Shown in pieces: positions 56,583 to 64,000 of a DNA stretch of 64,000 nt. Origin of the DNA: Promicromonospora umidemergens. Lineage in GTDB: Bacteria > Actinomycetota > Actinomycetes > Actinomycetales > Cellulomonadaceae. The stretch covers positions 1 through 64,000 of the forward strand of contig NZ_JAMTCT010000027.1 in assembly GCF_024171995.1 (NCBI RefSeq). The letters run 5' to 3'. The notes beneath the pieces are model-generated. The model searched no databases, had not been told where the DNA came from, and saw nothing but the letters and a program-made list of their open reading frames with translations. Positions within the stretch are counted from its first letter, which is position 1, and every line of letters begins with the position of its first letter. The position numbers and the translations under genes are program-made.

Positions 56583-57332
56583 GTGAGTACCACCGTCCGA
56601 CGCGGTCGACACCGCGCCGATCATGCTCCTAGCACTCCCCTGATGACCGTGACCCGCACTGCAGCCCGCTCGGGCGCAGTCATCGCGGCATCGTCCGGAC
56701 TTCTCGCGACGGCATTCGCACCCGGTGCGCACGCCGTCGCTGGAGACGGTTCGAACCGCTTGGCAAGCGTCGACATGTCGGCACTGACGCAGGCCGCCCG
56801 CAAGGAGCTCGCGGCGGCCCCGGCAGTACAGGTCGCAACGGACGCGAAGCTCAGCATCGAGAGCAAGGCCGTCACGGTCACCCCCGCTCCAGAGCCAGAG
56901 CCCGTCGTGAAGGCCGCCACCTATCCCGAGCCGGAGGTGGAGGCCCAGGCCTCGGTCGAAGAACCCGAGCCGGCCACCCCGGACTACGCGTCCGACGGTT
57001 CCATCGGCGCTCAGGCCGTGGCGATCGCCATGCAGTACCTCGGTATCGCCTACACGTACGGTGGCGAGTCCCCGGGCACGGGCTTCGACTGCTCCGGCCT
57101 GATCAAGTACGTGTACGCCCAGCTCGGTGTCCAGCTGCCGCACTCGTCGTCATCCATGGTGGCCTCCGGCTACCAGGTCACGACGCCGATCCCCGGCGAC
57201 ATCGTGTGGACCCAGGGCCACGTCTCCCTCTACGCGGGCGACGGCATGGTGGTCGAGGCGGCCAACTACGGTACGCCGGTCCGCCACACCGCCCAGTGGC
57301 AGGACTACGCGGTCTACATCCGCCCGTACTGA
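56583..57332 (+). CDS. Secreted NlpC/P60 peptidoglycan endopeptidase (first copy)
   Basis: This 249-residue protein has a signal sequence (to about residue 52, GAHAVAG), a Pro/Glu-rich spacer (PAPEPEPV, EEPEPATP) and a C-terminal NlpC/P60 domain from about 140. Catalytic Cys170 is in GFDCSGLIKYVYAQLG and His213 in WTQGHVSLYAGDG. It hydrolyses stem-peptide bonds in peptidoglycan outside the cell. The GTG start follows GGAG. It is a paralogue of the gene at 58720, with a different spacer. Confidence 0.92.
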   Translation: MSTTVRRGRHRADHAPSTPLMTVTRTAARSGAVIAASSGLLATAFAPGAHAVAGDGSNRLASVDMSALTQAARKELAAAPAVQVATDAKLSIESKAVTVTPAPEPEPVVKAATYPEPEVEAQASVEEPEPATPDYASDGSIGAQAVAIAMQYLGIAYTYGGESPGTGFDCSGLIKYVYAQLGVQLPHSSSSMVASGYQVTTPIPGDIVWTQGHVSLYAGDGMVVEAANYGTPVRHTAQWQDYAVYIRPY

Positions 57333-58719: not shown

Positions 58720-59466
58720 GTGACGAACTCCATCCGCGGCCGGCATCGTGACAGCCGGCCGGCCATGACACCGCTGACCATCCTCGCTCGTACCGCCACG
58801 GAGAACGCCGGCACCGTCGCCCGCCGTGGCGCCATCGCCGCAGCCGCAGGTGGCGTTCTGATCTCGACCATCGCGACGACGGCCCACGCGGCCCCGGCGA
58901 TGGACCTCAAGACCGATGTGAAGACCGCCAAGCTCAACTCGGTCGACCTCAACTCCCTCACCGCGGTAGCCAAGCAGGCAGTCGCCGCGGCCCCCACCGT
59001 GACCGTCCCGGCCGACGCAAAGATGCCGACCGAGATGGAAGCACTGGGCACCTCGTCAGACGCCGACGGCAAGAAGGGCGGCGAGGAGGGCGAAGGCCCT
59101 GCCGTCGTCTCGGTCGACGCACCGGACCCGGTCCCGGTCGGCCAGCAGGCCATCAACATCGCCTTCAACTACCTCGGCATCACGTACGTGCTGGGCGGTA
59201 ACTCGCCGGCCGAGGGCATGGACTGCTCGGGCCTGATCCAGTACGTGTACGCGCAGCTCGGCGTCGGCCTGCCGCACTCGTCCGGTGCGATGCTCAGCTC
59301 CGGCTACCAGGTCACGTACCCGGAGCCCGGCGACATCGTCTGGACACCCGGCCACGTGGCCCTCTATGCGGGCGACGGCATGATCATCGAAGCCTGGGCC
59401 GCCGGCATGCCGGTGCGCTATACCGAGATGTGGCAGAACAGCCCGACATTCATCCGCGTCGCGTAA
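58720..59466 (+). CDS. Secreted NlpC/P60 peptidoglycan endopeptidase (second copy, riboswitch-controlled)
   Basis: This 248-residue paralogue of the gene at 56583 has a signal region ending near ATTAHAAPA (about residue 60), a Lys/Glu/Gly-rich spacer (GKKGGEEGEGP) and a C-terminal NlpC/P60 domain with Cys169 in GMDCSGLIQYVYAQLG and His212 in WTPGHVALYAGDG. The GTG start at 58720 follows AGGAG by 7 bases, and that site is part of the riboswitch P1 stem. It should cleave peptidoglycan stem peptides when c-di-AMP is low. Confidence 0.94.
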   Translation: MTNSIRGRHRDSRPAMTPLTILARTATENAGTVARRGAIAAAAGGVLISTIATTAHAAPAMDLKTDVKTAKLNSVDLNSLTAVAKQAVAAAPTVTVPADAKMPTEMEALGTSSDADGKKGGEEGEGPAVVSVDAPDPVPVGQQAINIAFNYLGITYVLGGNSPAEGMDCSGLIQYVYAQLGVGLPHSSGAMLSSGYQVTYPEPGDIVWTPGHVALYAGDGMIIEAWAAGMPVRYTEMWQNSPTFIRVA

Positions 59467-59649: not shown

Positions 59650-61017
59650 ATGCGTTTCAGCAGCCTCGCGGGTCGCGAGGGTGGGCGGGGTGCAGCGCTC
59701 CGGCGCCGACCTGGTCAGCTCGTGATTGCCGGTTTCGTCGCTGCCATAGCCGTGGGCACGCTGCTCCTGCTGCTCCCGATCGCGGCGTCCGGTGAACCGG
59801 CCACGTTCATGGAGGCGCTGTTCACCGCGACGTCGGCCGTGTGTGTCACGGGCTTGATCGTCACGGACACACCGGTGTTCTGGTCGGGGTTCGGCGAGGC
59901 GGTGATCCTGGTGCTCATCCAGATCGGCGGCCTCGGGGTCATGACCGTCGCCTCGCTGCTCGGCGTCCTGGTCTCACGGCGCCTGGACCTGAGCTCGCGA
60001 CTGGTCGCCGCGGCGTCGACCCGCACGGTGAGCCTTGGCGACGTACGCCGGACCCTCGTCCGCGTCGTCATCCTCGCGTTGGTCATCGAGGCCGCCGTCG
60101 CGACGGTGCTGGCGGTGCGCTTCGCCGTCGCCTACGACGAGACGCTCGGCCGAGCGCTCTGGCACGGCGTCTTCCACGCCGTCTCCGCGTACAACAACGC
60201 CGGCTTCGCCCTGTTCTCGCTGTCGCTCATCGACTTCGTGGCCGACCCGTGGATCGTCCTGCCGATCTGCCTCGCCACGATCGTGGGCGGGCTCGGCCTG
60301 CCGGTGGTCCTCGAGGTCCTGCGCGAACGCGTGCGGCCGGCGCGCTGGAGCGTCCACACCAAGATCACGCTGCTGATGACGACACTGCTGCTGGTGGGCG
60401 GCACCGTGTTCTTCCTCGTGGCCGAGTGGGACAACGCCGCGACCATGGGCGGGCTCGACAACGGCGGCCGGGTCCTGGCGTCGTTCACGCAGTCGGCGCA
60501 GGCGCGCACCGCCGGGTTCAACTCGGTGAACACCGGCGAGATGCACACGGAGACCTGGCTCGGGACGATCATCCTCATGTTCATCGGCGGCGGCTCCGGT
60601 GGAACGGCCGGCGGTATCAAGGTGACGACGTTCGCGGTGCTCGCCGTGGTGATCTGGTCCGAGCTACGCGGCGACCCGGACGCCACGGTCTTCGACCGCC
60701 GCATCTCGCCGGCCACCCAGCGCCAGGCCCTCACCCTGGCCCTGCTCGGGGTGGCGATAGTGGTTCTCCCCACCCTGTGGATGACGGCGCTCTCGCCGTT
60801 CACGGTGGACCAGATCCTGTTCGAGGTGACGTCCGCGTTCACCACCACCGGTCTGTCCACAGGGATCACCGCGCAGCTCGCCTGGTATCACCAGCTGGTG
60901 CTCGTCATGCTGATGTTCATCGGGCGGCTCGGACCGATCACCCTCGGTACCGCGCTCGCGCTGCGCGCCCGTGGCCGCCTGTACCGGCTGCCGGAGAGCG
61001 CCCCGATCATCGGCTGA
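59650..61017 (+). CDS. TrkH/KtrB family potassium uptake protein
   Basis: This 455-residue membrane protein has four M1-P-M2 repeats. The filter-like P-loops are TATSAVCVTGL, AVSAYNNAGFAL, SAQARTAGFNSV and TSAFTTTGLSTG, each with a central Gly. It forms the K+ translocating subunit and normally needs a KtrA/TrkA gating subunit, which is not in this window. The ATG at 59650 is preferred by homology; an in-frame start at 59596 is possible. It follows a c-di-AMP-controlled gene; c-di-AMP is known to inhibit KtrA-type gates, so both may belong to one osmotic response. Confidence 0.92.
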   Translation: MRFSSLAGREGGRGAALRRRPGQLVIAGFVAAIAVGTLLLLLPIAASGEPATFMEALFTATSAVCVTGLIVTDTPVFWSGFGEAVILVLIQIGGLGVMTVASLLGVLVSRRLDLSSRLVAAASTRTVSLGDVRRTLVRVVILALVIEAAVATVLAVRFAVAYDETLGRALWHGVFHAVSAYNNAGFALFSLSLIDFVADPWIVLPICLATIVGGLGLPVVLEVLRERVRPARWSVHTKITLLMTTLLLVGGTVFFLVAEWDNAATMGGLDNGGRVLASFTQSAQARTAGFNSVNTGEMHTETWLGTIILMFIGGGSGGTAGGIKVTTFAVLAVVIWSELRGDPDATVFDRRISPATQRQALTLALLGVAIVVLPTLWMTALSPFTVDQILFEVTSAFTTTGLSTGITAQLAWYHQLVLVMLMFIGRLGPITLGTALALRARGRLYRLPESAPIIG

Positions 61018-61046
61018 CGGCTACGCGCTACCCGCCGTACACGACG

Positions 61047-61102
61047 CCGCGGCCGCACCGATCATCGACGTCAGGAGGACGACGGTGACGGCGCGGCCGC
61101 GG
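61047..61102. terminator. Inverted repeat between trkH and the GlsB/YeaQ gene
   Basis: CCGCGGCCGC (61047-61056) and GCGGCCGCGG (61093-61102) are perfect inverted copies 36 bases apart in the convergent gap. They could form a long-loop terminator; each is itself nearly palindromic. Confidence 0.4.
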
Positions 61103-61112
61103 GATGCTGCGA

Positions 61113-61376
61113 TCAAGCCTTCTTGCGGCCGAAGATCGCCTGGACGATCAGGATCACGATGATCGCGCCGAGCACCGAGAAGAGCCAGCTCTGCCAGGAC
61201 CAGAAGGTGTCCATGCTGACGTTGAAGATGAGACCACCCAGCCAGCCGCCGAGCATGGCGCCCAGCACGCCCAGGAGCAGGGTGAGCCAGAAGCCGCCCG
61301 GCTGCTTGCCTGGGATGACGATGCGGGCGATCACGCCGGCGATCAGTCCGAGGATAAGAAAGGCCCAGAAGCCCAT
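61113..61376 (-). CDS. GlsB/YeaQ/YmgE family membrane protein
   Basis: This 87-residue protein has three glycine-rich membrane segments: MGFWAFLILGLIAGVIARIV, GGFWLTLLLGVLGAMLGGWL and the last SVLGAIIVILIVQAIFG, ending GRKKA. It belongs to the transglycosylase-associated/GlsB stress-response family. GGAGGAAG precedes the ATG. The function is poorly known; members are induced by envelope and general stress. Confidence 0.92.
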   Translation of the reverse strand: MGFWAFLILGLIAGVIARIVIPGKQPGGFWLTLLLGVLGAMLGGWLGGLIFNVSMDTFWSWQSWLFSVLGAIIVILIVQAIFGRKKA

Positions 61377-61582
61377 AGCGTCTTCCTCCAGAGTAGTTTG
61401 GCCTGCTTGCGCACTACCTCAGCACTGATTGGGCCGACGTGCCACCGGACCCGCCGAATCAGTCCCATATCGGGACATTGCACCCAGCCGATCCGCTGAC
61501 GGCGTCGCGCTACAGTTCGCCCGGGCAAGGGCCTGAGGCAGGACCGGAGCAAGGACTCCGGGCACGTGACAAGGGAGACCGC

Positions 61583-62452
61583 ATGAACCAGGCGATCGGT
61601 ACACCGGCCGAGCCACGACTCGAACCACGCACCTGGCGGGGGCGGCTCCGCACGTTCCTCGACCAGAGGTGGTTCGTCAACCTCGTTCTTGTCGTGATCC
61701 TGGCGAATGCCCTGATCCTGGGCGCCGAGACCATGGTGAGCGGCGCTGCGTACGAGATCCTGATGGACATCGACCACATCATGCTCGGCTTCTTCGTGGT
61801 CGAGCTGCTCCTGCGGATCGTCGCCAACGGTCGGCAGTTCTTCCGTGACCCGTGGAACCTGTTCGACCTCGCCGTCGTCGGCATCGCGTTGCTCCCGGCC
61901 AGCGAGTCCCTGTCCGCGCTGCGCGCTCTGCGCGTGCTCCGCGTGCTGCGCGTGATCACGGTGGTGCCGTCGCTGCGCCGCGTCGTCGACGGTCTGCTGC
62001 GGGCCGTGCCGGGCATGGGCGCCGTCGGCGCACTGCTGGTGCTCGTCATGTACGTGTCGGCGGTGATAGCGACCGGCCTGTTCGGCGAGTCCTCGGACGA
62101 GTACTTCGGCAACCTGGGGATCTCGCTGTTCACGCTCTTCCAGGCCATGACGGGCGAGGCCTGGCCCGACATCGCCCGCACGGTCATGGTGGCTCATCCG
62201 TGGGCCTGGATCTTCTTCGTGCTCTACATCCTGGTGGTCAGCTTCGCGGTGCTGAACCTGTTCATCGCCGTCATCGTCAACGGCATGGAGGAGATCTCCG
62301 AGGAGGAGCGCCTGGACGACGAGCAGAAGGACGAGCGGCTCGACGCCCTGGCCGCACAGAACCGGGAGATCCTCGTCGAGCTCCGCTCCCTGCGCGCGAA
62401 GCTCGACGATGAGGGCGGCGGCAGCACAGCCGGGGCCGGCGCCACGCCATAG
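61583..62452 (+). CDS. Bacterial voltage-gated cation channel (NaChBac-like)
   Basis: This 289-residue single-repeat channel has segments S1-S6. S4 carries Arg114, 117, 120 and 123 every third residue (ALRALRVLRVLRVITVV). The pore loop is FTLFQAMTGEAWPDIAR with filter residues T190-G-E-A-W-P-D196, and S6 ends FIAVIVNGMEEI. A C-terminal coiled coil (EEERLDDEQKDERLDALAAQ) should make the tetramer. The ATG follows AAGGGAG. The filter differs from the TLESW of sodium channels. Its stop codon abuts the stop of the convergent LeuRS-like gene with no base between. Confidence 0.92.
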   Translation: MNQAIGTPAEPRLEPRTWRGRLRTFLDQRWFVNLVLVVILANALILGAETMVSGAAYEILMDIDHIMLGFFVVELLLRIVANGRQFFRDPWNLFDLAVVGIALLPASESLSALRALRVLRVLRVITVVPSLRRVVDGLLRAVPGMGAVGALLVLVMYVSAVIATGLFGESSDEYFGNLGISLFTLFQAMTGEAWPDIARTVMVAHPWAWIFFVLYILVVSFAVLNLFIAVIVNGMEEISEEERLDDEQKDERLDALAAQNREILVELRSLRAKLDDEGGGSTAGAGATP

Positions 62453-64000
62453 CTAACCCAGCACCACGTTGACGAGGTGCGGCGGCCGCACCACGACCCG
62501 CCGCACCGCCCGGTGTCCCACGGCCCGGGTGACGGCCGGCCGCGCCAGGGCGGCCAGCTCCAGGTCCGCCGCCGCGACGTCGGCGGGCACCGAGAGGCGG
62601 TCCCGCACCCTGCCGTCGACCTGGACCACCGCCTCCACCTCCGTAGTCACCAGGAGCGCCGGGTCCACTGCCGGCCACGGCTGCGCCGCGACCGGCGTCG
62701 TGCGCCCCAGCCGCTGCCACAGCTCCTGGGCGGTCTGCGGCGCGAACAGGCTCAGCAGCACGGCTATGGCCGCGACGGCCTCTTCGTAGGCCGCAGCGTC
62801 CACGCTGCCGCCCGACGCCGCCCGACGCACCTCGCCCACCAGGCCCATCAGCCGCGCGACGGCGACGTTGAGGCGCCCGGCGTCGACCAGTCCGTCGACG
62901 TCGTGCACCGTGCGATGCACCGCGCGACGCAGGACGTCGGGACCGCCGTCGCCGTCGCCGTCGCCGTCGGTCGAGCCCGATGGGACCAGGCGCAGCACGC
63001 GAGCCAGGAACTTTCGCATCGCCTCGGGCGAGACGTCCGCCCAGTCGACGTCGTCCTCCGGCGGCCCGGAGAACAGGATCGCGAGCCGGACGGCGTCGAC
63101 CCCGTGCCGGTCCAGCTCGGCCGCCAGGTGGACGCCGTTGCCCAGGGACTTGCTCATCGCCCTGCCGTGGTTGACCACCTGCCCCTGGTTCAGCAGGCGG
63201 GCGTACGGCTCGGGCGAGGGCACCAGACCCATGTCGAACAGCACCTTGGTGACGAACCGCGCGTACAGCAGGTGCATGGTCGTGTGCTCGGCACCGCCCA
63301 CGTACAGCGCGGCCGGCATCCAGCGGGCGGCGTCCTCGGGGCGGAACGGGCCGCCGTCGTATCCCGGCGACAGATATCGCAGGAAATACCAGGACGAGTC
63401 CACGAACGTGTCCATCGTGTCCGTGTCCCGCTCGGCCGGGCCGCCGCACCGCGGGCAGGCGGTCGCCACCCAGTCCCGTGCGCCGGCCAGGGGCGAGACG
63501 TCGCCGGGCGTGAGCTGCTCGCCCTCCAGGTGCGGCAGCTCGACCGGCAGCTGGTCGTCCGGGACGACCACCTCGCCGCAGCCCGGACAGTGCACCACCG
63601 GGATCGGTGCGCCCCAGTAGCGCTGCCGGGAGACCAGCCAGTCGTGCAGGCGGTAGCTGGTGCCGTCCGGTCCATGCTGTCGGCCGATCCAGTTCCGCTG
63701 CATCGTCAGCACGTGCGCCGGCCAGCCCGGCTCCAGCAGCGACATGTCGTCCAGCAGCCGGTCCGCGTACGCGGTGATCCGGAAGAACCACTGCGTCAGG
63801 CTGCGGGCGACGACGGTGGCGCCGCAGCGCTCGCACGCGCCGTCGACCACCTGCTCGTTGGCCAGCACCGTCCGGTCGTCCGGGCACCAGTTCACCTCTG
63901 CCGCGGCGCGGTAGGCCAGACCTCGTTCGTGGAGCCGGGCGAACAGCCACTGGGTCCAGCGGTAGTACTCCGGCTCATGTGTGTGCACGCGCCGTGACCA
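62453..64000 (-). CDS. leuS: Leucyl-tRNA synthetase-like protein lacking the CP1 editing domain, 5' end beyond the window
   Basis: The frame stays open to the window edge, where it reads [18 protein letters not shown] as in LeuRS. Class I synthetase features follow: [71 protein letters not shown], and AMSKSLGN as the KMSKS loop. Between NWIGR and [11 protein letters not shown] only about 13 residues remain, where normal LeuRS has the CP1 editing domain of some 180 residues. The insertion before KMSKS is also short. A CxxC/CxxC zinc-like pair (HCPGCGE, ACPRCGG) is present. The HIGH motif is outside the window. It would charge leucine without post-transfer editing, or act as a specialised paralogue. 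Confidence 0.9.

Follow-up and report, generated by a model that had tools for sequence, protein, structure and literature searches.

A second, CP1-less leucyl-tRNA synthetase of Promicromonospora umidemergens encoded behind a likely leucine attenuator

The genome of Promicromonospora umidemergens (6.60 Mb, 65 contigs) encodes two leucyl-tRNA synthetases, and in one of them, named here LeuRS2, the CP1 editing domain is cleanly lost. By sequence, its catalytic core and tRNA-binding parts are intact, the gene is under purifying selection, and it is preceded by a conserved leader peptide, hairpin and terminator. We consider it fairly probable that LeuRS2 is a working leucyl-tRNA synthetase and an inducible, editing-free spare that would be made when charging of tRNA-Leu fails. 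The window analysed comprises 64,000 nt (C27:1-64000) and holds the 3′ part of leuS2 (window 62453..64000, minus strand), the reading frame of which stays open through the window edge.

The leuS2 gene starts with an ATG at C27:64351 (minus strand), 351 bp past the window edge, and comprises 632 codons and a stop; the protein used in the profile searches (P0001) is LeuRS2 with one extra leading codon. Over positions 60000-64000 the letters of the window, compared directly, were those of the contig. LeuRS2 belongs to the TIGR00396 family (668.5 bits vs. a curated cut-off of 548.4), with model positions 16-226 and 403-842 matched and nothing between them, so that approximately 176 positions, corresponding to CP1, are missing. 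A short linker replaces about 175 residues at window 63612..63691 (minus strand), as located by a sequence pattern and the TIGR00396 gap; the pattern had one match in the window and none in 100 shuffles. The first-pass annotation had described a clean deletion of CP1 with a junction near 63620-63690, and both statements were confirmed, there being no PF13603 match in LeuRS2. Replacement of CP1 by a short linker is also what defines the CP1-less LeuRS of the Mycoplasma mobile kind. The same junction was found in 12 of 12 LeuRS2 proteins of the genus, where the spacing from RNWIG to RQRYWG is 23-28 residues, as well as in LeuRS2 of G014, a genome from another genus. Because the deletion is shared by these 12 genus genomes and G014, the gap is not an assembly slip, and an assembly error was ruled out as its cause. 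The annotation had named two findings that would overturn it: LeuRS2 being the sole LeuRS together with a separate or displaced editing segment, or resequencing that brings the missing part back. Displacement of the editing domain was ruled out, since the only PF13603 match of the genome sits in LeuRS1, the second LeuRS.

Downstream of the junction LeuRS2 retains both tRNA-binding parts. The anticodon-binding domain (PF08264; P0001 residues 477-592, 42.0 bits vs. a cut-off of 25.1) is encoded at window 62579..62926 (minus strand), and the C-terminal tRNA-binding domain region at 62453..62578 (minus strand) is kept to its usual end: the TIGR00396 match extends to model position 842 of 843 and the alignment to 6q89 reaches chain residue 876 of 877. 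The catalytic core motifs, claimed to be intact, indeed agree with those of solved LeuRS structures. The HIGH signature reads HMGH just beyond the window edge, DTFVDSSWY is kept, and the KMSKS signature (window 63146..63160, minus strand, by motif reading) is AMSKS, with alanine for the first lysine and MSKS retained; the motifs were intact in the 11 genus genomes checked. The stretches that form the leucine pocket, DTFVDSSWY among them, are thereby retained. The leucine-specific insertion ahead of this signature is missing as the annotation had stated, but its absence is unremarkable: among CP1-bearing LeuRS2 proteins of the family it was absent in all 20 that were readable (21 tried), and 19 of these 20 carry AMSKS and one SMSKS. 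Both features were therefore dismissed as special traits of the CP1-less enzyme. AgnB2 and the LeuRS enzymes of B. subtilis and M. mobile lack the insertion too, according to the accessible part of the source (PMC5059758).

The leuS2 dN/dS ratios (Nei-Gojobori, own script) ranged from 0.212 to 0.318, with a median of 0.255, over 55 pairs from 11 genomes; G004, in which the gene is cut by a contig end, was omitted. For LeuRS1, compared from 60 residues before RNWIG onwards, the range was 0.064-0.225 and the median 0.176 (55 pairs, 11 genomes, G001 and G005 omitted, so that each set contains one genome absent from the other). As judged by these ratios, leuS2 is under purifying selection. The orthologue from Promicromonospora sp. 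AC04 (L212), modelled from an alignment of 27 CP1-less sequences with itself included, gave a pLDDT of 88.2. In a Foldseek search with this model AgnB2 came first, and two chains of the M. mobile LeuRS were found at target TM-scores of 0.81 and 0.85 and 34% identity.

LeuRS1 is encoded at C1:206397-209258, carries CP1, and is the only full-length LeuRS of the genome, in agreement with the earlier proposal that the CP1-less enzyme is a second paralogue; LeuRS2 is thus not the only LeuRS of the cell. The two proteins share 37-55% identity per aligned piece, and LeuRS2 is therefore not a recent copy of LeuRS1. The neighbouring genes had been expected to be telling, and ten open reading frames were scanned across the window edge with profiles. 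They comprise TrkH, an ion channel, a divergent sigma-like protein with zf-HC2, a frame with no match, a tRNA (U5)-methyltransferase-like protein, VanY, a mycothiol-S-transferase, DUF2306, an ABC permease and an ABC ATPase; no biosynthetic cluster was found among these ten. Further from leuS2, two open reading frames for secreted NlpC/P60-like hydrolases, judged by eye, lie at window 56583-57332 and 58720-59466 (plus strand).

Upstream of leuS2, beyond the window, we found a short open reading frame encoding the leader peptide MRNARSPLT (C27:64487-64458, minus strand), a hairpin, P1 (C27:64457-64417, minus strand), and an intrinsic terminator, GCCCCTCCCTGTGAGGGGCTTTTT (C27:64414-64391, minus strand), after which follows the leuS2 ATG. 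The hexamer TATCGT ends 6 nt ahead of the leader ATG and CTTTAC lies 19 nt further up; because of this spacing, the 5′ end of the leuS2 transcript probably lies at the leader ATG or close to it, which would make the leader leaderless. Within the genus the leader is present in 11 of 12 genomes with LeuRS2, ten of them with two Leu codons and our own with one, and elsewhere in the genus it mostly reads MxxARSLLx. At the remaining locus (L091) leader and promoter have been replaced by an insertion-sequence-like end, and hairpin and terminator remain. Across the family it was found at 34 of 36 LeuRS2 loci (absent from L091 and from L081, the latter not in the leader alignment set), for instance as MRSSLLLTPPR, MRHLRLLLRRPR and MHVVRLLLTRPR. 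A CTT codon occurs in every one of them, and CTT accounts for none of the 58 Leu codons of leuS2 and for a single one among the 72 of the LeuRS1 frame, which is approximate.

A T-run terminator follows the leader in the genus, in G014 and in genera g21 and g23 (one g23 copy with GCATTTTT). None was found at the 15 loci of the CP1-bearing genus g7, where leader and hairpin are present, and control in g7 must therefore differ. Hairpin P1 covaries: in a selection of 12 of the 34 sequences (several genera, none of g7) both partners are altered in five of its nine pairs, and the same holds for three of nine when the 11 leaders of the genus are compared together with that of G014. A candidate pseudoknot, GGGCAC/GTGCCC, would join the P1 loop to a stretch past the terminator; its five inner pairs are invariant.

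Folding of 19 leaders placed the terminator in the minimum-energy structure of all 19 with a ribosome on CTT and of 18 with the leader free. The exception is our own leader, in which the Pro-Leu codons GCCCCTTAC of the free RNA pair with the 3′ arm of the terminator (-42.0 vs. -41.7 kcal/mol when the fold begins further down). The paired sites lie approximately at C27:64465-64473 and 64396-64404, with Pro-Leu at the position of Leu-Leu in the relatives. A ribosome on these Pro-Leu codons would block the pairing, which departs from the classical logic and was counted against an attenuator switch. No mutually exclusive antiterminator favoured by the stalled ribosome was seen in the 19 stalled-ribosome folds. 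Rfam gave no match at our own leader, and in five relatives only a c-di-AMP riboswitch, which is not at leuS2, and one sub-threshold match. The riboswitch (RF00379, 63.6 bits) belongs to another Promicromonospora genome, where it lies at L089:9584-9780 (minus strand), roughly 3 kb distant from leuS2.

A short open reading frame with a Leu codon, a hairpin and an intrinsic terminator ahead of leuS2 together make up the layout of an attenuator, even with the single Leu codon of our own leader. The region is likely a leucine attenuator like those that have been predicted ahead of leuS in Streptomyces. As far as the accessible parts of these sources go, attenuators were predicted ahead of leuS in S. 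avermitilis and S. coelicolor in 2005 (PMC1262725), and the S. lividans leuS leader LeuL2, MRAVRLLLSEPR, is leaderless and comes with a hairpin and a U stretch (PMC8079986). Our leader resembles these in the short Leu-run peptide followed by hairpin and terminator before leuS, with leaderless translation in S. lividans (PMC8079986, PMC1262725). It differs in preceding an editing-free paralogue while the full-length leuS shows none, and the portions of those papers available to us mention no paralogue. Leucine attenuators are common on actinobacterial leuS. Our leader-plus-terminator scan was passed by 13 of 28 readable full-length leuS loci of the order and by a full-length locus of Chloroflexota (L207), and full-length leuS genes of Actinoplanes, Virgisporangium and Actinopolymorpha also have a Leu leader. 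We therefore dismissed an attenuator specific to CP1-less copies; such control is not tied to the loss of editing. Upstream of LeuRS1 in the window genome nothing passed the scan, although one 23-residue frame holds a Leu-Leu pair, and in the 390 bp upstream of LeuRS1 in G014 no Leu-Leu frame was found.

On the reading we favour, in which LeuRS2 would be an inducible spare, transcription would start at or near the ATG of the leader peptide, which would be translated at once, and by default most transcripts would end at the terminator ahead of leuS2. When charging of tRNA-Leu drops, either because LeuRS1 is inhibited or damaged or because leucine is scarce (the natural trigger being one or other of these, we presume), a ribosome would halt at the rare CTT codon beside the hairpin, and more transcripts would read through into leuS2. 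LeuRS2 would then charge tRNA-Leu without proofreading, and the norvaline or isoleucine errors might be tolerated briefly or cleared in trans by the CP1 domain of LeuRS1. We infer these steps, from stalling and read-through to leucylation and error tolerance, from the layout of the locus. LeuRS1, for which no attenuator was seen in the two genomes viewed most closely, fits a housekeeping role; if it has that role, LeuRS2 would be needed only when charging fails, and CP1 could have been dropped on the Promicromonospora branch. Against the proposed switch stand the persistence of the terminator in the stalled-ribosome folds, the single Leu codon of our own leader and the missing T-run terminator of g7. 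The Leu leaders of full-length leuS genes elsewhere and the dispensability of leuS2 likewise count against this reading.

LeuRS2 occurs in 12 of 13 Promicromonospora genomes at 79-88% identity per aligned piece, with frames that are open in all 12 (one cut by a contig end), and is missing from G005. The G014 protein, also CP1-less, is 75% identical. At E values of 1e-100 or better, 36 of 150 family genomes matched LeuRS2 (the 12 of the genus, G014 and 23 others), and CP1 is present in LeuRS2 of genera g7, g21, g22 and g23. Counted over 37 genomes, PF13603 occurs exactly once in G014 and in every one of the 13 genus genomes, once in G033 and in the incomplete G149, and at least twice in the 21 others. 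The editing motif TTRP(D/E)T was found at 22 of 23 CP1-bearing relative loci, the exception reading TSRPET. An apparent erosion of CP1 in g23 was rejected, as the search pattern had overlooked a variant motif and both printed sequences read ASG(I/V)V(M/A)GVPAHDERD. A tree of 89 LeuRS cores was built by a quick method (578 columns; CP1, the linker and one variable stretch excluded). In it the sampled genus members and G014 form a group with support 100, nested in a support-99 group that unites the family LeuRS2 proteins, except that of G033, with two sequences from a different family. From this nesting, CP1 was lost on the branch leading to the genus and G014. Since most family relatives keep CP1 together with such a leader, the loss probably took place after the second LeuRS was already present. 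LeuRS2 frames are broken in two of five g23 genes (L073, L074); given these and its absence from one of 13 genus genomes, leuS2 is dispensable.

A search of 84,980 genomes with the junction pattern returned at least 114 stretches, and at least 45 in-frame CP1-less LeuRS were recognised among 116 loci, two of which are viral stretches. Among the matches listed, these include at least seven from Promicromonospora, at least 14 from cyanobacteria (two on named plasmids), at least 11 from Patescibacteria, at least six from other Actinomycetota, at least three from Armatimonadota, at least two from Inquilinus, and at least one each from Bacillota and Chloroflexota; L201 (Chloroflexota) is one more by alignment. 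In a phylum sample of 396 genomes three matched the pattern and two of these were out of frame, leaving the window genome, so the CP1-less state is rare. Of the genomes behind 34 of the 45 loci, 20 also encode a CP1-bearing LeuRS, including all ten cyanobacteria, and a Sporichthyaceae draft holds a fragment of a second LeuRS. The CP1-less enzyme is the only LeuRS found in the remaining 13 (11 of 11 Patescibacteria, one Armatimonadota and one Anaerolineae draft), some of which are drafts that may be incomplete. The Patescibacteria loci concerned are L140, L143, L176, L187, L199, L205, L209, L221, L228, L233 and L241; two others of this group, L179 and L146, keep CP1. The tree implied 12 changes between CP1-less and full-length states, at least nine of them forced by well-supported branches, a rough estimate given the quick method and some long branches. 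Loss of the LeuRS editing domain is therefore not confined to reduced parasites. For Actinopolymorpha, it is the CP1-less copy that falls with LeuRS1, and the full-length one with LeuRS2.

A Leu-run leader with a terminator-like hairpin precedes the CP1-less genes of Actinopolymorpha, a Micromonosporaceae draft and one Anaerolineae draft and, judged by eye, those of the Sporichthyaceae draft and Virgisporangium. None was seen before the CP1-less genes displayed from Actinoplanes, an Acidimicrobiales draft, Inquilinus, Armatimonadota, Bacillota and cyanobacteria. Pfam analysis of the neighbours in Actinoplanes, Inquilinus and a cyanobacterial plasmid revealed a hut operon, transposases and a transporter, and no cluster; five of six neighbour picks in Virgisporangium had no match and may be frames wrongly chosen. 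Viral contigs gave one relative whose match spans a full-length gene and two pattern matches, neither of which matched LeuRS2. None of the titles and abstracts listed by our literature search describes a CP1-less second LeuRS in actinobacteria.

A bolder extension of these data, which we regard as rather doubtful, is that bacteria with two LeuRS repeatedly turn one of them editing-free, and that here leucine stress would lead to a programmed low-fidelity state, the loss of CP1 being selected rather than decay. Norvaline and isoleucine would then enter at Leu codons and the loss of CP1 would give faster or drug-proof charging; the excision would have taken place many times, including in cyanobacterial plasmid copies and in the seemingly sole LeuRS of some Patescibacteria.

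Among the alternatives to an inducible spare, a dedicated resistance gene deserves most attention, though we think it unlikely. LeuRS2 would then escape a natural LeuRS inhibitor that poisons LeuRS1, offering no editing-site target, and a block of LeuRS1 would be just the condition under which the attenuator turns it on, as with the indolmycin-resistant second TrpRS of Streptomyces. The second copy, the attenuator and the missing editing site all fit, and inhibitor resistance, which the annotation had also proposed, is plausible and compatible with the attenuator. Resistant second copies of SerRS, IleRS and TrpRS and their dedicated expression are reviewed in the accessible part of PMC9437257, and AgnB2 is described as a self-immunity LeuRS in that of PMC5059758. 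However, no biosynthetic cluster adjoins leuS2, the locus has no link to an inhibitor, and relatives with CP1 have retained a leader of this sort although they lack that immunity. The residues also argue against it: by motif spacing rather than alignment, the equivalent of AgnB2 T42 is the P in MFPYPSG and that of Q573 in KQSKS is the M in AMSKS, so that at both positions compared LeuRS2 keeps the sensitive-type residue. We know of no natural inhibitor of the LeuRS editing site.

If leuS2 were instead a relic in decay, in which an older leuS has become superfluous beside LeuRS1 and the CP1 deletion is one step of the loss, the gene would be expected to resemble what is seen in part: it is absent from one genus genome and broken in two g23 genes, its dN/dS is somewhat above that of LeuRS1, and one leader in the genus has been lost. 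Yet the frames are open in 12 genus genomes, with intact motifs in the 11 checked and ratios of 0.21-0.32; leader and terminator are kept, and similar clean excisions occur in unrelated lineages, which makes such decay improbable. Most improbable of all is supply of leucyl-tRNA or leucyl-adenylate to a pathway outside translation, such as a peptide ligase or the modification of lipids or proteins. The duplicated LeuRS-I of Sulfolobaceae makes adenylate and does not charge tRNA, according to what could be consulted of PMC9437257, but neither the ten window neighbours nor the scanned Actinoplanes, Inquilinus and cyanobacterial plasmid loci hold pathway genes, and control by a leucine leader suits translation. 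With no biosynthetic cluster, and with anticodon-binding and C-terminal tRNA-binding parts kept, the annotation's suggestion of an amino-acid-activating enzyme for another pathway, and a biosynthetic role generally, is unsupported.

Several characterised enzymes share parts of this arrangement. The M. mobile LeuRS (PDB 3ziu) likewise lacks CP1 and the leucine-specific insertion and aligns to LeuRS2 residues 28-622 in one stretch. It is the only LeuRS of a reduced parasite, whereas LeuRS2 belongs to a 6.6 Mb actinobacterium that also has a full LeuRS, and is encoded as a second copy downstream of an attenuator. AgnB2 of Agrobacterium radiobacter K84 (PDB 5ah5), the best fold match of the L212 model, is also a second LeuRS without that insertion, but keeps its editing domain, is plasmid-borne and confers agrocin 84 self-immunity, and its resistance residues are unshared at the two positions compared. 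LeuRS-I of Sulfolobaceae is a second LeuRS with a disrupted CP1, but is archaeal, with a divergent C-terminal domain and no aminoacylation, as far as the part of the review at hand describes it (PMC9437257). LeuRS being monomeric, mixed dimers are not expected. Among tested precedents, the ThrRS pair T1/T2 of Anabaena comes closest to the combination of an accurate, constitutive enzyme with a less accurate induced duplicate. There, according to the sections available, the induced copy is proofreading-impaired and edited in trans, but its induction is by low zinc and the editing domain is degenerate, not deleted (PMC4787780).

The leader peptide, covarying hairpin and terminator upstream of CP1-less leuS2 are newly recognised, as are CP1-intact versions in relatives. 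The genus offers a cultured group in which an editing-free LeuRS, behind a likely leucine sensor, occurs together with a full one, so that the cost or use of proofreading could be tested by a single deletion. If LeuRS2 escapes editing-site inhibitors, it would represent a natural route to insensitivity.

Further CP1-less genes vary in context and extent. Two lie on Cylindrospermum plasmids (L177, L188), with a full LeuRS elsewhere in the genome. In the CP1-less LeuRS of these and other filamentous cyanobacteria the HIGH signature is changed to HVGN, and transposases and a relaxase are found nearby on one plasmid. The CP1-less LeuRS of Actinoplanes (L213:2450-4157) and of the Acidimicrobiales draft (L154:922-2674) also ends before the C-terminal domain. 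An Armatimonadota draft (L165:2130-6721) carries full-length and CP1-less LeuRS genes in tandem.
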